Source of the DNA: a virus | Virus record (IMG/VR): IMGVR_UViG_3300037189_017154 | Coordinates: 17,188 to 81,187 of that record | Direction: 5' to 3' (one strand) | Length of the DNA: 64,000 bases | Shown here: positions 42,929 to 60,398 of the stretch, one piece after another | Layout of the letters: each line of letters starts with the position of its first letter | Position numbering within the stretch: the stretch's first letter is position 1 | Notes under the pieces: model-generated | Told to the model about the DNA's origin: nothing | The model's input: only the letters and a program-made list of their open reading frames with translations | Databases searched by the model: none | Translations under genes and position numbers: made by a program

Positions 42929-44761
42929 GTGGATCACATTAAATCGCAGGTAGATGGCCTAGCAGAACTAAGCGACGAGCAAGTCGCCGCTCTGCAAGAG
43001 TCAATCGTACGTGAATTTGAATTGGTCGAGGGTAAAGACCCATCTCCTGAGGTTGTTGACGCTATGACGTCACTTGCCGACATGTTGGACACCGTACGCG
43101 GTGAAACCAGTCGTCGCGAGGCCGCTAAAGAAGAGCTTGCTGCTCGTGCTGCCGAAGCGACTATGCGTGTTACAGGTGAGGACGGGGAGAACCCAGTTGG
43201 CGACATGCCAGTTGAGGAAGCTCCAGCTGAAGGTACTCCTGAAGAAGAGGCTACAGAAACCCCTGAAGAAGAGGCTGTAGAAACTCCTGAAGAAGAGGCC
43301 AAAGAAACTCCAGCTCAAGAGGACGAGGAAAAAAAGAAGGCTTACTCAGCTGAAACCTCTGACGCATCAATGACTCAGGTTGAAGGATCTGAACTATCAA
43401 CCGAAGAAACCCAAACAACTACAACCGCTGACGCAGTTCAGCAGGAAGAGCAGGCCCCAGTGACCGCAGCAGCAGAAGAGAGCTTCCAGGCTCCAGCTGA
43501 CCGTCAGCCTGTTATTCAGGTTTCAGAGCCAGCAAAGGTAGCAATTACCGCTGGTGCTGACATCCCTGGCTACAGTGCTGGATCATCCATCTCTGACATG
43601 ACCGAAGTTGCATTAGCAATGGAGAAGAGAATTCATTCTCTACGTCGTGTTAACGGTGGAGATGGAGAGCAGCACATCGTTGCATCCATCACAACCGAAT
43701 ACCCAGAGGCTCGTACTCTAACAACTGACGCAGAGTCAAACGCTCTGAAGATTGCAGCCGTCGCAGGCCCAGAAGCACTTGTTGCTGCTGGTGGTCACGC
43801 AGCTCCATTCGAAGTCAAGTACGACATCTACTCAATCGGCTCAAGCAACGTTCGTCCTCTACGCGATGCATTGCCTCGCTTCCAGGCTGACCGTGGCGGT
43901 ATCCGTTTCGTAACTCCTCCATCATTCGCAGCTGGTACTTATGACACAGCTGTTGGTGTATGGACTGCAGCTAACGACTCAGCTACCACTCCTAGCCCAG
44001 CAAGCAAGACTAGCTACACTGTTACAGCTGCTGCTGAAAACACAAAGGCTACTGACGCTGTAACCCTACAGCTACAGTTCGGTAACTTGATGACTCGTGC
44101 TTACCCAGAGTTGATTGCTCGTCACAACGAGCTAGCTCTAGTTCAGCACGCTCGTGAAGCTGAGCAGAACCTACTAAGCGCACTAAGCAGCGGTTCAACT
44201 GCTGTTACAACTACTAACCTAATCGGTTTTGGTCGTGACTTCCTAGTTCAGATCCGTCGTGCAGCTGTTGCTTACCGTAACCGTCACCGTATCGCTCATG
44301 ACACTCAGCTTCAGGCTTTCATCCCTGAGTGGGTATACGACGCTATGGCAGCAGACCTAACCTTGGCAATGCCAGGTGACGGTACTCTGTCTGTATCTAA
44401 GTCAGAGATCGATGGTTACCTAGCACACAGCAACGTAACTCTAGTTGCTTCTCCAGACATGACTGTATTTGGTTCACAGAGTGCTGCTGCACTTCTTGAG
44501 TTCCCGGACAGCTTTGACTGGTACCTATTCGCTGAGGGAACATTCTTGTTCCTTGACGGTGGAACTTTGGACCTTGGAATTATTCGTGACTCCACCTTGG
44601 TTGGCACAAACGATTACAAGATGTTCATTGAAACATTCGAAGCTGTTGCAAAGGTTGGTATTGAGTCTCTCAAGGTCACCTCAACCATCAGCATCAACGG
44701 TGTTGCTGCTGCATTGCGCGACACCACAGGCGGTACTGCTGCCGCTACTATCGAGCTTTAA
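42929..44761 (+). CDS. Major capsid protein with acidic N-terminal scaffold-like domain
   Basis: 610 residues from a GTG at 42929 with AGGAGG upstream. Residues 1-75 are helical; 85-135 are acidic with PEEEA/TPEEEA repeats; the HK97-fold capsid region runs from about 200 (VKYDIYSIGSSNVRPLRDAL, RNRHRIAHDTQLQAFIPEWV, YKMFIETFEAVAKVGIESLK). The N-terminal 190 residues resemble the delta domain that serves as built-in scaffold and is removed by the protease. SFQAPA at 185-190 resembles the giant protein's GFEQAPG linkers and may mark the cut. Followed by a terminator, as usual for an abundant product. Confidence 0.9.
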   Translation: MDHIKSQVDGLAELSDEQVAALQESIVREFELVEGKDPSPEVVDAMTSLADMLDTVRGETSRREAAKEELAARAAEATMRVTGEDGENPVGDMPVEEAPAEGTPEEEATETPEEEAVETPEEEAKETPAQEDEEKKKAYSAETSDASMTQVEGSELSTEETQTTTTADAVQQEEQAPVTAAAEESFQAPADRQPVIQVSEPAKVAITAGADIPGYSAGSSISDMTEVALAMEKRIHSLRRVNGGDGEQHIVASITTEYPEARTLTTDAESNALKIAAVAGPEALVAAGGHAAPFEVKYDIYSIGSSNVRPLRDALPRFQADRGGIRFVTPPSFAAGTYDTAVGVWTAANDSATTPSPASKTSYTVTAAAENTKATDAVTLQLQFGNLMTRAYPELIARHNELALVQHAREAEQNLLSALSSGSTAVTTTNLIGFGRDFLVQIRRAAVAYRNRHRIAHDTQLQAFIPEWVYDAMAADLTLAMPGDGTLSVSKSEIDGYLAHSNVTLVASPDMTVFGSQSAAALLEFPDSFDWYLFAEGTFLFLDGGTLDLGIIRDSTLVGTNDYKMFIETFEAVAKVGIESLKVTSTISINGVAAALRDTTGGTAAATIEL

Positions 44762-44853: not shown

Positions 44854-45993
44854 ATGGCCACTTTTGACGGAGCGTTTCCAGCCCCGAAGATCGTACCTTC
44901 CGCATTTGGATTGTTTTCTGTAGTTAAGCCGGAAAATCCAAATTCTGAAGATAAGTGGGTTCGTGGTTTTAACCAATGGTGGGAGACCAGACCTAACTAT
45001 GTACGTAACTGGGATGAAACTAGCACTACTTCTTATGTAGTTGATACTAATCCAGCTGCTCCTCGTTACAGCTACCACATTCCATTTTTTATCGAATCTG
45101 AAGATTTTGCTTCGACTTTTGGTCTTAATGGTGAAGACAGATTTGCAAAAGTTCTTCGTCAACTTGAAGGTGTCTCTCAGAAAGCCTGTGAAGTAGAACT
45201 TTGGGATGGTGCAGTAGCACTCCAAGGAACTGGCACTGACTTAGTAAACCCATACCTATCTAAGGGATCTAGCGTCACGGTTCTTTCGGGACGTAAGTCT
45301 GATGGCTCAATTGCAGATCCTACTTCTGATGGTGCAGCAATTTCTGTTAAGCATGGTGTAGCTGTGCTTGAGTATCAAATTGGTCAGTACTCTTCTGGTG
45401 GTGAGCAGGGCTGGATCCACATGACTCGTGATGCAGCTGCAGTTCTTAGTTCTTATAATCAAATGGTATTCCACCAACCCGGAGCTTTAAATACACAGCA
45501 CCTACAGACTTTTGGTGGTACCCCTCTAATAGTCGGATCTGGCTACTCAGGTAACGGTCCAGTAGTTAACGTAACTAATAAGGCTGCTGACGGAACTAAC
45601 GCAACTTTAACTACAGCTAACAACCACGGCCTTGCTGTTGGTGACACTGTAGTTGTTACTGGTGTTGACTCTACTTTCAATGGTACTTATGTGACTACCA
45701 CTGGTACTACCGCAACTACGATTAAGTATGCTAAAGCATCTACTGTATCTTCTACTGCCGCTACTGGCACTGCTCAAATGCAGGCTAATAGCCGCTACAA
45801 ATGGATTTACGCATCAGGTGAAGTACGAGTTTATCTCGGAAAAGCTGAAGTGGTAAATGACAGCTTAGCTCAAGGCTATGGTGTTACATCAAATCAAAAT
45901 GACATGAAAATTAAAGCTACTCGTGCAGCCGCCGTGTACTTTGATACATCCATCCACCTAGGTGTCAAGGTTGACTTGACTCTAACAAACTAA
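44854..45993 (+). CDS. Head or tail structural protein with one FCCH-like insert
   Basis: 379 residues, AAGGA ribosome site. Residues 1-230 look like a compact structural fold (FNQWWETRPNYVRNWDETST, SRYKWIYASGEVRVYLGKAE later). A module at about 245-300 has NHGLAVGDTVVVTGVDSTFN and GTYVTTTGTTATTIKYA, the beta module repeated in four other proteins here. Directly after the capsid gene, so a second capsid-like, decoration or head-tail protein. The exact role is not settled by sequence. Confidence 0.72.
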   Translation: MATFDGAFPAPKIVPSAFGLFSVVKPENPNSEDKWVRGFNQWWETRPNYVRNWDETSTTSYVVDTNPAAPRYSYHIPFFIESEDFASTFGLNGEDRFAKVLRQLEGVSQKACEVELWDGAVALQGTGTDLVNPYLSKGSSVTVLSGRKSDGSIADPTSDGAAISVKHGVAVLEYQIGQYSSGGEQGWIHMTRDAAAVLSSYNQMVFHQPGALNTQHLQTFGGTPLIVGSGYSGNGPVVNVTNKAADGTNATLTTANNHGLAVGDTVVVTGVDSTFNGTYVTTTGTTATTIKYAKASTVSSTAATGTAQMQANSRYKWIYASGEVRVYLGKAEVVNDSLAQGYGVTSNQNDMKIKATRAAAVYFDTSIHLGVKVDLTLTN

Positions 45994-46012: not shown

Positions 46013-47557
46013 ATGCCTACTCAAGACTATGCAGCCAGCATCCAAGGTGTGTCGATCCGTGTCACCCGCTTGGACGCATCTGGCAACTTGATGACAGGTC
46101 CCGGTGACAGCTACGCAACATCAGCTTTCATGCGCTTGTCATTCACCCCTGAATACGAAGAAGGTGACGAGATCACTGAGAAGTCAGCAAACGGTACAGT
46201 TTGTGTAACTTACAAGTCTCCAGACACTCTGAAGCGTATCACTATGGAACTAGCTATTTGTGAGCCAGATCCAGAACTAACTGCTCTATTATCTGGTGGT
46301 CTCTTGCTTCGCAAGAACCTAGGTACTTTTGCTTCAGCTAACAACCAGTCAATTGGTTGGGCAGCTCCAGGTGTTGGCGATGACCCAGCAGGTAACGGTG
46401 TTGCTATTGAAGCTTGGTCATGGGCTATTAAGAACGGTAAGAAGGCAGGAACTCTTCCTTACTTCCACTGGGTATTCCCATACGTTAAGGTTCGTCAGTC
46501 AGGTGACCGCGTTATTGAAAACGGTCTATTGGCTAACACATTCGAAGGCTACGGTCTAGGAAACCCTAACTTTGCATCTGGTATTGATGGTCGCTGGGAG
46601 TTCCCAACTGCAGCTGAGCGTCCTTACTCATACGCACGTTCTGCTTGGGCTCCAGTAGGTCTATCTGGTTTCTACACTTGGAACTACGCTGGTGAAGGTA
46701 CTACCGAACTTGGTACTCCTAACTACACAGCTGTTACTTCACTTGATGGTCTTAACTACAGCCTATCTACTGAAGCAATCACAACTGCTGGTGCGATCAC
46801 TCTAGTTACTTCAGCTAGCCACACTTACAGCGTTGGCGACAGCATTACAGTCGGTAACGCAGATACTACTTACCTAGTAACTAACAAGGCTGCTACTACT
46901 TCTACTGTAACTTTGACACTTGCGTCTGGTCACGGTGTTGTAGTTGGTGACAAGATCATTGTTTCAATTGGTGACAGTGCATTTGACGGTACTTATGGTG
47001 TAGCTACAGTGTCGACTAACGACATTACCTACGCTAAGACCAATGCGGTTGCTGTGACTAGCGTTGCTGTAAACAGTTCATCTGCTGTTGTTACTCGCAG
47101 CATCTTCAATGGTACATTCACTGCTCTTGCAGGTACAACTGGAACTAGCGTTGCTGTTGCTCGTCGTGTTGCAATTTCAGCATGTACAGGCGCTACAACT
47201 ACTGGTACATACACTGCTACAGCTCACGGTCTAGTTACTGGTCAGCTAGTGACAGTGACTGGTTTCTCGACTAACGCAGCATTCAACGTTACCGCTGCTG
47301 CTATTACAGTAACTGGTGTAAACACCTTCACTGCAACTATCTCAAGCACAACCGCTACAGAAACTATTGCGGCCGTTGCTCAGGTAACTCGTGGTACTGC
47401 AATCACTGCAACTGCGGTTCCTTACGGTGCTTCTGTTTCATCAGCTGTGGCTGGTACTGCAGGTACAACTGGATACAACGTTCCTGGTAACATCAACTAC
47501 AACCCTGATGTTGCAATTGACCGCGTTATCAAGTCTAACGAGGACCCAACCTCTTAA
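46013..47557 (+). CDS. Probable major tail protein with FCCH-like inserts
   Basis: 514 residues, AAGGAGAA ribosome site. Residues 1-240 fit a tail-tube type protein (SFTPEYEEGDEITEKSANGT, YFHWVFPYVKVRQSGDRV). From about 255 the chain is Thr/Ala/Val-rich and holds three or four beta modules (GHGVVVGDKIIVSIGDSAFD, AHGLVTGQLVTVTGFSTNAA). These would decorate the tail surface. Its position before the adaptor genes is slightly unusual for a tail tube gene. Confidence 0.65.
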   Translation: MPTQDYAASIQGVSIRVTRLDASGNLMTGPGDSYATSAFMRLSFTPEYEEGDEITEKSANGTVCVTYKSPDTLKRITMELAICEPDPELTALLSGGLLLRKNLGTFASANNQSIGWAAPGVGDDPAGNGVAIEAWSWAIKNGKKAGTLPYFHWVFPYVKVRQSGDRVIENGLLANTFEGYGLGNPNFASGIDGRWEFPTAAERPYSYARSAWAPVGLSGFYTWNYAGEGTTELGTPNYTAVTSLDGLNYSLSTEAITTAGAITLVTSASHTYSVGDSITVGNADTTYLVTNKAATTSTVTLTLASGHGVVVGDKIIVSIGDSAFDGTYGVATVSTNDITYAKTNAVAVTSVAVNSSSAVVTRSIFNGTFTALAGTTGTSVAVARRVAISACTGATTTGTYTATAHGLVTGQLVTVTGFSTNAAFNVTAAAITVTGVNTFTATISSTTATETIAAVAQVTRGTAITATAVPYGASVSSAVAGTAGTTGYNVPGNINYNPDVAIDRVIKSNEDPTS

Positions 47558-50073: not shown

Positions 50074-50400
50074 ATGGCTAGATTCAAAGACTTTGGTGGA
50101 TCAGTTGACACAACTGCTGAACCAGTAAAATTCAAGCTTTTTAACGAAGAGTTCGTATGCGTGAAGCAGCTTCAAGGCAAGGTTCTACTAGAACTTGTTG
50201 CTGATTCAGGTTCGGACGATGCTGCAAAAACTGCATCAGTAATGACTAAGTTCTTCAAGACCGTTCTTCTCGATGAGAGCTACGAGCGATTCGACGCACT
50301 TCTAAACGACAAAGAAAAGATTGTTCCAGTAGAAACTCTTGCTGAGATCACATCATGGCTTGTCGAGGAGTACTCAGACCGCCCCAACGATCGGCCATAG
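50074..50400 (+). CDS. Tail assembly chaperone, short form
   Basis: 108 residues, AAGGATACG ribosome site. Sequence fits the G-like chaperone (KFKLFNEEFVCVKQLQGKVL, ETLAEITSWLVEEY). It ends with TAG at 50398-50400 inside the overlap with the next frame. Acts with the longer fusion form to hold the tape measure during tail assembly. Confidence 0.82.
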   Translation: MARFKDFGGSVDTTAEPVKFKLFNEEFVCVKQLQGKVLLELVADSGSDDAAKTASVMTKFFKTVLLDESYERFDALLNDKEKIVPVETLAEITSWLVEEYSDRPNDRP

Positions 50401-50834
50401 GGTTAATCGAGTGGGGGCTCGACTTATGGCCGTACGTAAACGGTAAATGCATTTTAAATGGAATACGACTAGAAAGTTTGGAGGCATCTGACATGCTAGA
50501 TGTACTTCACTATCTTCTAGAAGATGCTTTTGATGTGAGCTCTGCGGAACAGGCTCAGGCTAGAGATCAGATTCGAACTACTTTATACAAAGACTTTTAT
50601 GGCAAAACATACAAGTATGCTGCTAAAAAGAAAAACGATGGCTTTAGTACAGCTAGCGGATTTGACGATCAAGAGTTTGCTGAAGAGAATAAGTTGTCTG
50701 CTGAAGAAGATTCAGACATTAAACCATTTAATCCTAGGTATAAAGAACCTACCAAACCATTTACCCCTGCCACCGAAGTTGGACCTGACATGTTAGATCC
50801 TTTTGGTGGAGTACTAGATAGTCCATTGGGATAG
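50385..50834 (+). CDS. Tail assembly chaperone extension reached by -1 frameshift
   Basis: The frame overlapping the end of the previous gene continues to 50834 without its own ribosome site. A -1 shift at CGC CCC AAC (50380-50388) would join it, giving about 253 residues: join 50074-50385 and 50385-50834. Directly downstream is a hairpin CGGCCATA (50392-50399)/TATGGCCG (50425-50432) with inner TCGAG/CTCGA. The C-terminal part has KDFYGKTYKYAAKK and PFNPRY. Order and overlap match the lambda G/GT arrangement; the A-site codon does not fit the classic heptamer. Confidence 0.75.
   Translation, partial: QRSAIGLIEWGLDLWPYVNGKCILNGIRLESLEASDMLDVLHYLLEDAFDVSSAEQAQARDQIRTTLYKDFYGKTYKYAAKKKNDGFSTASGFDDQEFAEENKLSAEEDSDIKPFNPRYKEPTKPFTPATEVGPDMLDPFGGVLDSPLG
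50392..50432 (+). promoter_or_regulatory. Frameshift-stimulating hairpin
   Basis: 8-bp outer stem CGGCCATA/TATGGCCG and 5-bp inner stem TCGAG/CTCGA, three bases after the slippery site. The stop codon of the short form lies across the end of the 5' arm (50398-50400). Confidence 0.65.
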
Positions 50835-50843
50835 AGGTGACGC

Positions 50844-53800
50844 ATGGCAATTGTAGGTGAAGCTCATATTATTGTTCGCGCTTTAACAAATAGAGTTAAA
50901 GGCGACATTCGTAATGGGTTCAGCGGATCTGAAAAACTTGGATCTCAGGCTGGTAAACAGATTAGTGGTGCTTTTTCTAAAGCATTCAACGCGGCTGGAA
51001 AAGATGGTATATCTTTCTTTGGTCGCGTCTCTAAGGGCCTACAAGCCTTGCGTCCTGGTGCTGCTCAAGCATACGATGCATTTGCCTCTTTGCAACGTAA
51101 ATTCTACACAATGGGAACCGCAGCTGGCGGTCTTATTGGTGGAATATCATCACTAGGTAGTGCTGCACTAGCACTTGGTGGTGCACTGGCAGCTGCTGCT
51201 CCAGCTGCAATAGCCCTTGGTGGAGCCATGGTGTCTCTCAAGCTTGCTGGCTTTGTAGGCAAACTTGCTATGAAGGGAGTTGCGGAAGCAGCTTCTGCCT
51301 TATCTGAGCAACAGAAGGGTCTAGGCAAGACTGCTAGAGAACTTAGAGAAGATATGCAGCAGCTGGCTTTTGAAGCCGAAGAAGCTGCACTGGGGGAAAT
51401 GAGAGCAGGACTGTCCCTAGAGCAGGCTAGAGAAAACCTAGCTATGGTACAGGATCTACCTCCTAACTCTAGAGCTAGACGAGAAGCTGAACTGGCATAT
51501 GCCGAGGCCGATCTCAATATGAGACAGGCTATAGATCGAAATAAAGATCTACAGGAGCAGCAGGAGAAAGGCTCCAGAGGCTTCGGGCGTAATCCTATGG
51601 AAGACGCTCTAAAAGGTCTAAACGTATATCAAAAAACTTTTGCTAAATTCTTAGCCGGATTATCTAAGTACATGACTAGACTTCGTCTAGTTGCAGCTAG
51701 AGGTCTATTGCCACCTCTTCAAAGTGCCATATCACTAATTGTTAAAAAGGGATTCCCTGTACTTGAAAAGGGTGTTGGTGCTATTGCAGTAGCAATGGGC
51801 AAGGCTGCTAAGGATTTTGCCAAAATAATCACCACCACTCAAAATCTTAAAGCAGTAAACTCCGTAATGCAAATGTCTGCTCATTTTATTCAGCAGATGG
51901 GAAAACCTTTAGGTAACATATTTGCAATATTAGTTTTGCTACTAAAACAAGCTGCTCCTTTGCTCAGCATGTTTACTAAATTTTTAAATAAAAAAACTAA
52001 AGGATTTTTGTCTGATCTAAGGATCAAAGAGGCAACAGGTGAGCTAAGAAGATTCTTTGTTAGAGCTGGAAAGCTTGCTGCCCAGCTTGGAGCTATCCTC
52101 GGTAATACTTTTGGAGCTTTTGGTGGAATTGTTAAGGCTTCTGTAGGTAAGAACTCTGGCGGTGGATTACTACTAGATTGGTTCCAAGAAGTAACTGCAA
52201 AGTGGAAAGCACTTAGAAACGCACCTGAAGGCATTGAAAAAATGCGTGAAAGTCTTTATGTTGGGGCTAAAAATGCTAAAAGTCTGTTGCAGCTTGTTGG
52301 TGACTTATTTAGAACTTTGTTTGGAACTCTTCAGACTCCAAATCTTCAACTATTCTTTGATGCGGTTAGAGCGGGAATACCTTCACTTAAAGACATGTTT
52401 GAAGAAGTTGGATCTGCTTTGCCAATTATGGGTGAGCTTATAACCAACATCCTAAGGTTTTTTGGAGCATTTGCACAGTCTGGTGCTGTAGTTGAGTTCT
52501 TTAAGATCTTAAATGGTGCAGCCAAAATGCTTGCAAACTTTATGGAAAAACCTATGGTAAAGGCGTTCTTTAAAGCTACTGCTAAAATTCACGCCTTTGC
52601 TCTTGCTTTTGGTATGCTAGCCATATATGGTGGCAAAGCCCTAGATATTGTTGTCGGTGGTGCAGCAAAATTTATGGGCTTTCTGGATAAGATGGCTCAG
52701 CACCCTATTCTGACCTTTCTTGGCTTATTAGCCGGTGCATTTATATATTTATATAAAACTAATGCGGATTTTAAAGCTTCTATGGATGAGTCCTGGAAAG
52801 CAATTCAGGATTTAATAAAGCCGGTTGTTGACGTAATAAATCTAGCTCTCAAAGAGTTTGGTCAATTAATTTCTTCCGAAGTTAGTGCTGGGGTTAACAA
52901 ACTTATAGTTCCTTTGACTAAGTTGGCAGAGGTTCTTATGGCTTTAATTCCCCCGTTAATGGAAGCAATTGTTCCAACTCTAAAAATATTTGTAGATATT
53001 CTTGTACTGGTAATCAAATATGGATCTGATCTAGTTGCACAGTTTGTATCTTCATTAGTTCCTGCCATACAAATTCTCTCGGAACTAGTAGGAACTTTGC
53101 TTAAAGCATTTGCTCCTTTAGTAGAGCTTTTGATTAAAGATCTAATCCCAGTAATTGCCTTATTTATATCTCATATCATAAACTTGGCACTAACCCTATT
53201 AAAAGATTTTACTCCAGTAATTAAATCAATTATTGAAGCCATAACTCCACTTGTAAAAATATTTACGGAAATGGCTGGGACTGTACTTAGAGAGTTAATG
53301 GATGCTTTCTATCAGCTTACCGCTGCATTTGTAGGTAAGGGTAACGGACTTAATGGAATAATTGGTGGACTAGTAGATCTGTTCGGTTCACTAGGTAAAA
53401 TCATTGCCGACACTGTAGTTCCAATATTTAATAATCTAGTCCAGCATATTTTCCCTCTGTTTAATCAAATGGTTGCTGAGCTTGCACCTGTAGTTATAAA
53501 ACTTATTACTGACGTTCTTCCAATAATTGTAAAAATTGCAGAAGCTTTTGGAGAAGTATTTCTTCAAATTGCTAACGTTGCTATTCCTGTAATTTCTGGT
53601 CTTGTTAGCGCATTCCTGCCTATTATTAAAGTTCTAGCTGAGCAGCTAATTCCTATATTTGATTCCCTGCTCACTGCGGTTCTCCCTCTATTTAAGAGCA
53701 TTATTCCGGCAATTACTCCTTTAATTAGTGAATTAGCTTTGTTTATTCAAAAACTATTTGAAGCAGTTGTTCCATTTATAGAGAAACTTATGCCAAGCAT

Positions 53801-55559
53801 AATGTCTCTTATTGGGATGCTTCAACCTATATTTATTAAATTAATGGAAGTTATAACTCCAATAGCAGATCTCTTTATCCGACTATTAGATCCAATTCTA
53901 TCTTTAGTCATGCTAATGCAGGATCTATTTTTAGAAGTTATTCAACTTGTAATAGACATAGTAATTTCTTTGGTAGAAACCCTACTGCCTCTTTTTGACA
54001 TCTTTGTAAAGCTTATAGACCCGATCGAATCTCTGATCAAGAGTTTGCTTCCTCCACTAAAAACTATTATTTCCACAGTGGTGGATGTATTTATTACATT
54101 ATTTAAATCAATTATGCCTGTAATTGACGCTCTTCTAGACATACTTATTCCAGTTATTGATACTTTAATAAGAACCGTAATTCCACCTTTGACTCAAATT
54201 ATTATGGTTCTTGTTGACTCTTTCCTTGATCTATTTAATGCAGTTATGCCAGCAATTTCTGGTGTACTAAAGGCTCTGCTTCCAGCGGTTGCTGATGTTG
54301 TTAAGGCTGTATCTCCACTAGTTCAGGTGCTTGTTAATCAGCTTGGCCCAATAATTTCAGACGTAATAATTCCTGTAATTAAGTCATTGATTGATCCTTT
54401 AATCTCTATAGTTACAGTTTTTACAGATATTGTTAAAGCTCTTGCTCCATTTATTGCTCAGGTGGTTCAGCAATTAATGCCTGTAATTACAGAATTAGTT
54501 AAAATTCTTGTGCCTCTTATAGATAGTTTAATAAAAATGTTACTGCCTGTTATTAAAGATATTTTGACAGCAATACTACCTTTGATCTCAGTTCTAATTG
54601 CTGATCTAGTTCCGGTATTTGGCGATATTATTACGGCATTGATGCCTTTTATTACAACTTTGCTTAACCAACTTATTCCTGTAGTTATGCAATTACTTCA
54701 TGCTTTAGAACCAATTATAGATTTATTGTTGGATATACTCAAGCCACTTCTTCCTATAATTAGTGATCTATTTAAACAATTATTGCCCCCTATTCTTGAA
54801 ATTGTTAAAGCATTTTCTAAATCTCTTGGACCTATACTAGAGCTTCTTCTTACACTTATAGAACCAGTGATTGACGTCATAACTACTTTGGCTAGCATTC
54901 TCTCTGGTACGTTGAGCATAGGGATTGCAGGTATGGTAAATGGGTTAAAACTTATAATGCCTGCAGTCATCGGCGTTACAGATGTGATTGCCAAGCTTGC
55001 AACAGGAATTGTAACTGGTCTTGCTAATGCGTTTACTTTCCTTATTAATATGGCTAAAGGTTTTGCAATTGTTTTTAAGCAAATATTTACTGGAATAAAT
55101 ATAGTCATAAAAGCAGTACTAAATGGTCTTTTAATTGCAGTTGAAGCTGTACTTAACTTTATTATTGCTTCAATTAACACCTTGTTAGATGGAATTAATA
55201 TAGTTCTTGATGGCATAAAGATTGCAACTTTTGGTGCTGTAGACATACATCTAGATCCAATTAAGCCAGTAAAACTTACTAGGCTAGCTGAGGGTGGTAC
55301 TGTAATGCCTAGCCCTGGTGGATCTATTGTTAACATTGCTGAAGCTGGTAAGCCTGAAAGAGTAGTCCCTCTGGACTCAAACGGGCTATCTGCTGGAGAT
55401 AAAGCTGTTTTAACTGCGATCAAAGACATGGCAGCTTCTGGTGCCGGAGGACCTGGCATTGAAATTAACGTCTATGCTAGTGAAGGAATGAGCGTCAAGG
55501 ATCTAGCAGCTGAGGTATCAAGACAACTTTCATTCTCAATGCGTAAGGGCACGATCTAA
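50844..55559 (+). CDS. Tape measure protein
   Basis: 1,571 residues. N-terminal 1-260 has helical and Gly/Ala-rich parts (GGLIGGISSLGSAALALGGA). Residues 480-1450 are a long series of hydrophobic helices punctuated by Pro every 10-20 residues (PLIDSLIKMLLPVIKDILTA), which sets tail length. The C-terminus has TRLAEGGTVMPSPGGS and EAGKPERVVPL, a motif common at the end of siphophage tape measures. Predicted tail length by the usual 0.15 nm per residue is about 235 nm. Confidence 0.92.
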   Translation: MAIVGEAHIIVRALTNRVKGDIRNGFSGSEKLGSQAGKQISGAFSKAFNAAGKDGISFFGRVSKGLQALRPGAAQAYDAFASLQRKFYTMGTAAGGLIGGISSLGSAALALGGALAAAAPAAIALGGAMVSLKLAGFVGKLAMKGVAEAASALSEQQKGLGKTARELREDMQQLAFEAEEAALGEMRAGLSLEQARENLAMVQDLPPNSRARREAELAYAEADLNMRQAIDRNKDLQEQQEKGSRGFGRNPMEDALKGLNVYQKTFAKFLAGLSKYMTRLRLVAARGLLPPLQSAISLIVKKGFPVLEKGVGAIAVAMGKAAKDFAKIITTTQNLKAVNSVMQMSAHFIQQMGKPLGNIFAILVLLLKQAAPLLSMFTKFLNKKTKGFLSDLRIKEATGELRRFFVRAGKLAAQLGAILGNTFGAFGGIVKASVGKNSGGGLLLDWFQEVTAKWKALRNAPEGIEKMRESLYVGAKNAKSLLQLVGDLFRTLFGTLQTPNLQLFFDAVRAGIPSLKDMFEEVGSALPIMGELITNILRFFGAFAQSGAVVEFFKILNGAAKMLANFMEKPMVKAFFKATAKIHAFALAFGMLAIYGGKALDIVVGGAAKFMGFLDKMAQHPILTFLGLLAGAFIYLYKTNADFKASMDESWKAIQDLIKPVVDVINLALKEFGQLISSEVSAGVNKLIVPLTKLAEVLMALIPPLMEAIVPTLKIFVDILVLVIKYGSDLVAQFVSSLVPAIQILSELVGTLLKAFAPLVELLIKDLIPVIALFISHIINLALTLLKDFTPVIKSIIEAITPLVKIFTEMAGTVLRELMDAFYQLTAAFVGKGNGLNGIIGGLVDLFGSLGKIIADTVVPIFNNLVQHIFPLFNQMVAELAPVVIKLITDVLPIIVKIAEAFGEVFLQIANVAIPVISGLVSAFLPIIKVLAEQLIPIFDSLLTAVLPLFKSIIPAITPLISELALFIQKLFEAVVPFIEKLMPSIMSLIGMLQPIFIKLMEVITPIADLFIRLLDPILSLVMLMQDLFLEVIQLVIDIVISLVETLLPLFDIFVKLIDPIESLIKSLLPPLKTIISTVVDVFITLFKSIMPVIDALLDILIPVIDTLIRTVIPPLTQIIMVLVDSFLDLFNAVMPAISGVLKALLPAVADVVKAVSPLVQVLVNQLGPIISDVIIPVIKSLIDPLISIVTVFTDIVKALAPFIAQVVQQLMPVITELVKILVPLIDSLIKMLLPVIKDILTAILPLISVLIADLVPVFGDIITALMPFITTLLNQLIPVVMQLLHALEPIIDLLLDILKPLLPIISDLFKQLLPPILEIVKAFSKSLGPILELLLTLIEPVIDVITTLASILSGTLSIGIAGMVNGLKLIMPAVIGVTDVIAKLATGIVTGLANAFTFLINMAKGFAIVFKQIFTGINIVIKAVLNGLLIAVEAVLNFIIASINTLLDGINIVLDGIKIATFGAVDIHLDPIKPVKLTRLAEGGTVMPSPGGSIVNIAEAGKPERVVPLDSNGLSAGDKAVLTAIKDMAASGAGGPGIEINVYASEGMSVKDLAAEVSRQLSFSMRKGTI

Positions 55560-57248: not shown

Positions 57249-60200
57249 ATGGTAGATGCTGCAACGTATAAATACTTTACTGTTGACATAGTAAGTAACA
57301 CAATACTCGCTGAAATTCCTTTTAGTGATGTGAGTTTTGAGCGAGCTCTAAAAGGTTCTGGAAAATTTGCTGGAACCATAGCTATTAGCGAAGAAACAAA
57401 CAATTTAGATCTATATGAATCAACTATGCCTGGTAGAACTGCTGTTTACGTTTTACGAAACGGAGTTTGCGTATGGGGCGGAATTATTTGGTCAAGAGAC
57501 TACAAAGTAACAAGTAAGGAGTTATCTGTAGACGCTTCTGAGTTCACTAGTTATCTACAACACAGGTACGTATGGAAAACTTTTAATTACAATCTTGAAG
57601 CAAAGGCTGAAAAAACTGTAGCTGGTGGAAATGTTAAAATTACTTTCCTAAATAGAAGCTACACCATGCCTACTCTGGACAGCGCTGGAAATAGAGTAAA
57701 AGCGTACATAAGTTTTGGTGAGCAAGGCTATGCCCAATACGGTGGATTCTATGAAGTTCTAAGTAGTCCTGCACCCACAAATACTTATTTTTATGTCAAG
57801 ATCCCTAAGCTACCTACTAGAGCTAGCAGTTACTATTCAAAAGTCACTGTCACTGCAAAAGTAGATACGTATCAATACATACGAGATATGCTTGATGGAG
57901 TTTTTAGTGATTTTATTGATACTGAATTTGCTAACGAGTTAATTGCACCTGGTGTTAAAGAAGCTAATACAATTACATATAGAAAAGTAGATAATTCAAT
58001 AGCTACAATAACAACGCTTTCTGCCCACGGGTTAATTCCGGGCCAACGTGTAGAAATTGTAAATTTATATGTAACTGAATTAAATGGTACTTTTACGGTT
58101 CTCTCTGTTCCGTCGTCAAATACTTTTACTTATGATGTAACTGGTTTAATTTCTACACTTGCAATAAATACATCTCCACTAACTAGCGTTTACTATCCAA
58201 TAAAGAGCAGACGCGTCACCGAAACAAGTAAGCGTGGAATTACTAAAGTAAAAAGAATTTCAAATGTGGCTTATATAACCACTAGATATCCTCACAAATT
58301 TGCTGTTGGAGATATTATCACAATGAAAGTTGAAGAAAAATATAAAGCTTTCAACAACGGAGATCCTGCGGTACCTGTAACAGTTACATCTGTTCCTAGC
58401 GATAAAGTGTTTACTTATGCAAACACTGGGTCAAATACTTCATCTGATGGAGTAACTGTGACAGACTCTAGATGTGAGTTTTCTGTTAGTAGAAAAATTC
58501 TTGAATTAACAGTATACGATGGCTACAGTTTAAACTTTAGTGCTGATGACTATGTATTAGTAAATGGTGTAGATGATCCGTCATGGGGAGTACCTATGTA
58601 TGATGGGTACAAATATGTGATTGCTACTGATACGGCTTCTCCTAAAACTTGGTTCCAGTTTGATCCTGAATTTGATATGACTGTAGAACCGTCAAGTGTT
58701 ACTCAGATCAAAACTAAAAAATATACAACATCTAGTAATTTAATTACTATTGTCACGAATTCTGCTCATGGATTTATGGTTGGTGACACCATTATCATAA
58801 ATATGGCTAAAGCTGATAAATTTTATGATGGTACTCAGACCATAAAAACAGTCACAAATTCTACAACTTTCTCATACACTCCTAAAGACCCTGGAACTGC
58901 TGATACTAAACAAGCAATGGCAGCTGGAACTGCTAAACGTATAAAGACTCAGCTTGCCCCTATTGCAAACACTTCTTACACTATAGAGGCAAAAAAGCGG
59001 GTATTGTCTACTGCAACAATTAGAACTACTGCGGCCCATGGCTTTGTTGTTGGAGATACAGTACTTGTTTCTTGTGATGATACGACTTTTAATAACTCAG
59101 ACTCTCCTGTGCTCATCCTTGACGTACCTACTACTACAACTTTCTCATACACAAGTGTTGGAACATCGGTGCCCACCTTGATTGCTGCTACTGGTACAGC
59201 AGTTGCTGTGTATACAAATTATGGCGTGGCTAGATACCCAACTCATATATCATCTAGCGGAACTTCTAGAACTATCTATTTCTATGGAGACGAGCATGGG
59301 TTTACTGCAAATCAATTTGTAACTGTTTACATAAAAGGTAAAACAAAATATAACAACAATAGTATTCCTGTACAAATTACATCTGTTACTGATAACAGCT
59401 TTACATACACTGTTACTGGATCATATACTGAATCTTATGTGGCTGCCCCGGATGATAGCAAAGTTCTAAAATCCGCCACAGTTTCTAAAATTCCTACTGC
59501 ATTCTCTAGAACTTATGGAGAGTTTCCTAATAATGCTGGCATGGGTGGAATTACTTATAGTAGTAATAACTATAGCCAAAAGGAGATCATCAATGCTCCG
59601 GTAATTGGAAGTGCCTTGACAAACGTTGGGGATATGCTTAACAAATACTCAAATAGCGTAAATGGATTCCAATATAGAATAGATTGCTCCGTCGAGAGTG
59701 TTGGCGGTATAAATGTATTCAAACGAAAATTTGTTCTTATACCTAGAACTCCTACTAGTCTTACTACTTACTTACTAACAAATCCTCTTGATCCTGGAGA
59801 GTATGCTCCTATAAGTGCTTTTGGTGCAGACAAACTTACTTTTGAGTACCCAGCGAATATTAACGATGTAACTCTGCAAGAAAATGCTGAAAATGGGGTA
59901 ACTCGTATGTTTGTAGTAGGTGATGGTAAGGGATCTGGCGGTGGAGATACTGGTGCTAGATATTCTGCTGCATCTGATAATGCACTACTAGATGATGGAT
60001 GGCCTTTACTAGAAAGTAGTGAAAAAGTTAGCTGGCCTTTAGTAGGTTACAATCAGATCAACTTGGATAACTGGGGTAATTACGATGTTGAAGGAGATCT
60101 ACAAAAATCTGCAGAACGTTTCTTAGCTGAGTCAAAGCCACCTATGGGTGAGTATTCAGTAGAAGTTAATGGATCTATTGACCCTGCCGTTGGTTCATAT

Positions 60201-60398
60201 AATCCAGGAGATTGGTGTCAAATAGTTATTAAGGATGATTTTATCTCTAAGCGTCTAAATAGTGCACTCGAGCCAAGAAAGAATGCAATACTTAGAAAAA
60301 TTGAATCTATTAAGGTAAAAGTTCCTGAGGGCCCGGAAGCCACCGAAACTGTAACATTAAACTTAGTTCCAGAATGGGATATTGATCGACATGGGTAG
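57249..60398 (+). CDS. Baseplate/tail-associated protein with multiple FCCH-like inserts
   Basis: 1,049 residues. Residues 1-130 and about 780-1049 have the phage tail hub pattern (FERALKGSGKFAGTIAISEE, GRTAVYVLRNGVCVWGG; later NGFQYRIDCSVESVGG and AERFLAESKPPMGEYSVEV). Between them lie at least five copies of the HGF-GD-V...FTY beta module (starting near residues 258, 355, 500, 600 and 680). The inserts separate the two halves of what would otherwise be a normal hub protein of about 500 residues. Confidence 0.78.
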   Translation: MVDAATYKYFTVDIVSNTILAEIPFSDVSFERALKGSGKFAGTIAISEETNNLDLYESTMPGRTAVYVLRNGVCVWGGIIWSRDYKVTSKELSVDASEFTSYLQHRYVWKTFNYNLEAKAEKTVAGGNVKITFLNRSYTMPTLDSAGNRVKAYISFGEQGYAQYGGFYEVLSSPAPTNTYFYVKIPKLPTRASSYYSKVTVTAKVDTYQYIRDMLDGVFSDFIDTEFANELIAPGVKEANTITYRKVDNSIATITTLSAHGLIPGQRVEIVNLYVTELNGTFTVLSVPSSNTFTYDVTGLISTLAINTSPLTSVYYPIKSRRVTETSKRGITKVKRISNVAYITTRYPHKFAVGDIITMKVEEKYKAFNNGDPAVPVTVTSVPSDKVFTYANTGSNTSSDGVTVTDSRCEFSVSRKILELTVYDGYSLNFSADDYVLVNGVDDPSWGVPMYDGYKYVIATDTASPKTWFQFDPEFDMTVEPSSVTQIKTKKYTTSSNLITIVTNSAHGFMVGDTIIINMAKADKFYDGTQTIKTVTNSTTFSYTPKDPGTADTKQAMAAGTAKRIKTQLAPIANTSYTIEAKKRVLSTATIRTTAAHGFVVGDTVLVSCDDTTFNNSDSPVLILDVPTTTTFSYTSVGTSVPTLIAATGTAVAVYTNYGVARYPTHISSSGTSRTIYFYGDEHGFTANQFVTVYIKGKTKYNNNSIPVQITSVTDNSFTYTVTGSYTESYVAAPDDSKVLKSATVSKIPTAFSRTYGEFPNNAGMGGITYSSNNYSQKEIINAPVIGSALTNVGDMLNKYSNSVNGFQYRIDCSVESVGGINVFKRKFVLIPRTPTSLTTYLLTNPLDPGEYAPISAFGADKLTFEYPANINDVTLQENAENGVTRMFVVGDGKGSGGGDTGARYSAASDNALLDDGWPLLESSEKVSWPLVGYNQINLDNWGNYDVEGDLQKSAERFLAESKPPMGEYSVEVNGSIDPAVGSYNPGDWCQIVIKDDFISKRLNSALEPRKNAILRKIESIKVKVPEGPEATETVTLNLVPEWDIDRHG

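Follow-up and report, generated by a model that had tools for sequence, protein, structure and literature searches.

The two overlapping reading frames that directly precede the tape measure gene in this viral DNA are, in all likelihood, a functional tail assembly chaperone frameshift of the lambda G/GT type, and comparison within the gene family indicates that the slip signal fixed across the lineage appears to be the tetramer C_CCN, on which one tRNA-Pro would re-pair with CCC. The window, that is, the whole 64,000-nt stretch of DNA analysed, lies inside an 81,187-base virus record. In the proposed mechanism, most ribosomes would translate G to the TAG that ends it, while a fraction, having read ...GAC CGC CCC, would meet a hairpin 6 nt further on. 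The single tRNA-Pro would then slip back one base and re-pair on a CCC made up of the final C of CGC and the two leading bases of CCC, after which the ribosome would go on to read CAA CGA TCG.... The product, a GT fusion of 253 aa, would carry the junction ...SDRP-QRSAIGLIEW, and together with G it would serve the tape measure protein as a pair of tail assembly chaperones. For this explanation as a whole, a one-tRNA slip on C_CCC aided by a hairpin, a probability of roughly 80% is estimated. The lambda gpG/gpGT type of -1 frameshift in tail assembly chaperones is of a kind already known (reviewed in PMC5009743), and it is the family-wide reliance on C_CCN that seems to be the new part.

The overlap in a -1 relation of the open reading frames at 50074-50400 and 50355-50834, pointed out in a preliminary description of this DNA, is confirmed. 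The -1 frame (T) is bounded upstream by a TGA at 50343-50345 and ends with its own stop at 50832-50834; it shares 50346-50400 with G and would contribute 149 codons after the slip, and the tape measure gene that follows encodes a product of 1571 aa (Table 1). As in lambda gpG/gpGT, two -1-related frames thus lie directly 5' of the tape measure gene and the slip falls near the end of G; the difference is that a family-conserved C_CCN tetramer is found here, not a fixed heptamer. A tblastn search with G returned 14 phage records (Microbacterium, Arthrobacter and Gordonia; 28.6-55.7% identity), and all 14 matches fall inside genes annotated as tail assembly chaperone or tail assembly protein, a homology from which we infer the chaperone role of the pair. 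Searches of PHROGs and Pfam placed neither G nor the T part in a family. An AlphaFold model of G (pLDDT 82.6) gave no Foldseek match at E<=0.001; with VIA-align, the best-ranked structure was 3fgx (Z 7.6), and the HK97 tail assembly chaperone 2ob9 came third (Z 4.5, rmsd 6.4, 84 residues, 8% identity). The latter match is weak and decides nothing, and these matches of a predicted fold are consistent, if weakly so, with the chaperone identity of G. Elsewhere in the window, tail-region ORFs at 44854-45993, 46013-47557 and 57249-60398 carry, by eye, repeated short motifs like 'aHGfvvGDtv...fNGty', and a 24-base tandem repeat of 3.2 copies at 43235-43311 corresponds to an ETPEEEA-like acidic stretch in the ORF at 42929-44761.

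Table 1. Features of the proposed frameshift region, in window coordinates.
Feature	Position	Strand	Basis
G, probable tail assembly chaperone, frame-0 product, 108 aa	50074..50400	+	ORF translation; tblastn
T part, -1 frame, predicted to be reached by frameshift	50346..50834	+	-1-frame conservation from just past the slip site
Shine-Dalgarno-like GAGGAG, 11 nt 5' of the tetramer	50365..50370	+	Sequence; possible second stimulator
Candidate C_CCC slip tetramer (Z_ZZN class); tRNA-Pro from CCC 50383-85 to CCC 50382-84	50382..50385	+	CGCCCN conservation
Possible 3-pair basal extension, 50387-50389 with 50435-50437, beyond a 2x2 internal loop	50387..50437	+	RNAfold of 50383-50480, window only
Putative stimulatory hairpin, 10-pair outer and 6-pair inner stem, containing the frame-0 stop TAG 50398-50400	50392..50432	+	RNAfold
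Tape measure protein gene, directly downstream of T	50844..55559	+	PHROG tape measure families, best phrog_305 2.4e-42

Conservation was counted on two overlapping sets of relatives. The first, the window plus 92 loci, fell to 90 once three had been set aside before counting: L080 and L091, whose G continues past the contig end, and L090, in which an early stop interrupts G. Merging identical sequences left 60 distinct loci. In L090 the WLMEEY motif lies further on, past the early in-frame stop, which may be a sequencing error or a real lesion. The second comprised the best 80 of 419 relatives from a further scan and partly repeats contigs of the first, and the combined wider set holds 86 distinct 75-base sites. 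Alignments of the G protein covered 77 of 97 distinct sequences plus L174 in one case and 55 in another. In the window the frame-0 codons are CGC (50380-82), CCC (50383-85) and AAC (50386-88), followed by GAT, and this slip site occurs once in the record. CGC CCN stands in frame in 59 of the 60 distinct G loci, CCN lying 4-12 codons 5' of the stop of G; the sole exception is the distant Gordonia phage GMA2. All 86 distinct 75-mers contain CGCCCN, and CGC is present in all 80 loci of the second scan, the query of which was an amino-acid pattern ending in RP, so that relatives without the RP dipeptide could not be returned. Arginine before proline is written CGC in only 35 of 191 cases in the flanking genes of the loci and in 4 of 32 elsewhere in the window, and the other arginine codons within the G genes are CGC in 44 of 213. 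The third base of the proline codon is T in 35, G in 27, A in 18 and C in 6 of the 86 sites, and on the tree the 7-mer has changed at least 28 times, CGCCC never. That CGCCC is invariant while the third proline base and the next codon are free argues that the signal shared by these phages is the tetramer C_CCN.

Whether one tRNA or two would slip can be approached through the codon that follows. A strict X_XXY_YYZ heptamer is present in 26 of the 86 sites and CCCGGAA, in which re-pairing is possible with a G-U, in 24, whereas the remaining 36, mostly CCT ACG and including the window, permit no A-site re-pairing. It is conceivable that in the window, too, tRNA-Pro and the A-site tRNA slip in tandem, the latter re-pairing imperfectly from AAC to CAA, and the heptamers and CCCGGAA do make tandem slips likely in the relatives that carry them. 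However, on CAA the anticodon for Asn would retain one pair at most, and the 36 sites that allow no such re-pairing tell against tandem slipping as the common mechanism, so that a two-tRNA slip in the window is improbable. A heptamer reading of C_CCC_AAC was rejected on the same ground of absent A-site re-pairing, in agreement with the preliminary description, which had noted that AAC to CAA breaks the X-XXY-YYZ rule. Its further remark that the slippery sequence is unusual holds in that there is no strict heptamer, as is the case in 60 of the 86 sites, but the site would not be an aberrant heptamer; it is better described as a tetramer of the Z_ZZN class, which has been tested in E. coli. The hairpin-driven P-site slip of one tRNA on CCC that was proposed there is probably right in essence, given the invariant CGCCC, the varying next codon and the many sites at which the A-site tRNA cannot re-pair. 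It is from these patterns that we infer the slip itself, during which tRNA-Pro may occupy the A site or the P site or be passing from one to the other.

The Z_ZZN tetramers of Sharma et al. (2014; PMC4066793) resemble the present site in that a single tRNA re-pairs on ZZZ and a stimulator is needed, and in spacing, the distance from tetramer to stimulator being 5 nt in the constructs of that study and 6 nt in the window. They differ in that the C_CCN motifs described there were synthetic, whereas here a natural gene family retains the motif, with all four N. According to the same source, C_CCU and C_CCC shift at least 4 times above background in E. coli with the IS3 pseudoknot, and C_CCA and C_CCG merely 1.8-3.6 times (PMC4066793); CCG and CCA, weak tetramers in E. 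coli, together account for 45 of the 86 sites here, many of them within heptamers or CCCGGAA. The latter is exactly the 'threetwotwo' motif of PRFect (PMC10885494). Among the eight backward motifs in the main text of that paper none is, by its name, a bare CCC, and the CCCCAAC of the window would therefore probably be missed. A search of the open-access literature, limited in scope and weak as a sign of absence, turned up no description of the present site.

If GT is made by frameshifting, the T frame should be meaningful from the slip onward, and this is where its conserved residues begin: directly after the slip in the -1 frame, with W15 and G20 invariant and W10 kept in 57 of 59 loci. The alternative that T is translated alone, from the ATG at 50355 or a later start, with the hairpin acting as a coupling or terminator element, can draw on the presence of that ATG in the window and on GenBank, where 11 of the 12 phage records examined list T by itself as a 'hypothetical protein'. 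However, 32 of 59 loci offer no ATG, GTG or TTG between the point where the -1 frame opens and T codon 20, no Shine-Dalgarno sequence is evident by eye 5' of ATG 50355, and independent initiation cannot account for an invariant choice of CGC among synonymous codons. With conservation running from the slip onward and loci that lack a start before T codon 20, it is very unlikely. The T genes of L001-L011 (e.g., L001:2863-3297) are annotated as separate hypothetical proteins; in phage Big4 (L001) the annotated start at 2863 lies downstream of the conserved W...WPY and cuts it off, so this annotation would miss the frameshift.

A single sequence does not fix the position of the slip, as the overlap in the window spans 50346-50400. 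The loci together do so more closely. In 21 of 59 a -1-frame stop directly precedes the nCG codon, and no earlier slip is possible; in L041-L043, where G ends after CGC CCA AAA GAG CAG, the frame-0 stop comes three codons past CCA, and no later slip is possible. Any slip is thus confined by comparison to CGC CCN NNN NNN NNN, of which CGCCC is the sole invariant part. The equivalent place is occupied, to within about one codon, by A_AAA_AAA in GodonK and Phendrix, distant Gordonia phages in which the genes are annotated as joined; in GMA2, with a frameshift note on its T, the sequence is G_GGA_AAC. A -1 slip at another codon of the overlap, which the window by itself would permit, is scarcely to be expected given these bounds, and neither is slippage of the polymerase on the CCCC run, for which a stretch of no more than three or four C, with N free, is a poor substrate.

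The one-tRNA slip on C_CCC would need a stimulator, and the candidate is the hairpin that starts 6 nt after the tetramer. RNAfold pairs 50392-50401 with 50423-50432 in an outer stem that adds a G-U and a G-C to 8 Watson-Crick pairs and 50407-50412 with 50417-50422 in an inner one, at -23.1 kcal/mol (z -4.07); none of 200 dinucleotide shuffles folds as well, and the z remains -3.49 when codons are shuffled with the T-frame peptide kept. The preliminary description had counted 8+5 bp, a fair count of a fold that exceeds chance against these shuffles, beginning 3 nt after AAC, which is also so; its view that this is closer than usual does not hold, since the short spacer was measured from a heptamer and the distance from the tetramer is 6 nt. 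As no convincing consensus structure emerged from RNAalifold run on the full set of sequences, the stem was tested by register. One register stands out: at least 7 pairs follow one another without a break in 58 of the 86 sites, the best of 34 other registers reaching 7 of 86, and 28 sites lack such a run there; in a smaller set, 7 or 8 of 8 pairs form in the shared register in 23 of 53 sequences and in none of 21 other registers. In the 58 sites with the run, the stem begins 3-8 nt from the tetramer, and in 55 of them 5-8 nt, within the range of about 5-9 nt looked for. The mean z of the 86 sites is -2.76 against T-frame-synonymous shuffles (55 at -2 or below), which in the overlap keep the T peptide and not the G peptide. 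Covariation in the stem is modest, with 73.0% of cells paired against 70.4% after shuffling (reached by none of 500 shuffles), and over the whole stem the number of pairs changed on both sides is not above that in shuffles, 312 of 500 reaching it; one stem pair alternates among G-C, G-U, U-G and U-A. In two Arthrobacter phages (L008:2834-2853 and L011:2774-2793) the hairpin is another one, of 8 pairs (GCGTCCTA...); it encloses the G stop and is as far from C_CCT as the hairpin of the window is from its tetramer.

The upstream GAGGAG may be a second stimulator. It occurs in 18 of 46 distinct upstream stretches. The energy of the duplex with the anti-Shine-Dalgarno sequence averages -6.6, and after synonymous shuffling -4.3; for the window, however, an equally good pairing is reached by 23% of the shuffles, and in the CCCAAAA clade pairing is weak (-3.3). 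An Rfam search of the window returned no match, and ARAGORN found no tRNA in it.

Hairpin strength appears to vary with the class of slip site, the mean z against T-frame-synonymous shuffles being -3.96 for tetramer-only sites, -2.18 for CCCGGAA and -1.64 for heptamers. Within one supported clade, the tetramer-only L024 and L033 have the hairpin (z -3.5 and -3.8), and the CCCAAAA members L026, L032, L037, L041, L071 and L079 are without a hairpin in the shared register (z 0.3 to -1.6). A counter-example is L088 (CCCCACG), tetramer-only and without local structure (z 0.11). As only two supported independent pairs exist on the tree, significance is out of reach, and a trade-off between heptamer and hairpin stays a suggestion. 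It is tentatively proposed, at somewhat less than even odds, that in this actinobacterial phage lineage the C_CCN slip of a single tRNA-Pro is the sole fixed element, and that A-site slipperiness and hairpin strength come and go around it, one in exchange for the other.

The present comparison has consequences both for annotation and for the study of frameshifting. Slip sites outside the X_XXY_YYZ rule can be located by family comparison alone; frameshift finders that demand a strict heptamer would miss 60 of the 86 sites, 36 of these without any A-site re-pairing, and at least 11 sequenced phages, with T entered as a separate 'hypothetical protein', would have their annotation corrected. The family would further provide a natural set in which to test how far a hairpin and the following codon tune a single-tRNA slip on proline. 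If the proposed exchange is true, the lineage would constitute a natural tuning series for -1 frameshifting, within which L024 and L033 against the CCCAAAA members of their clade would offer a direct natural contrast.
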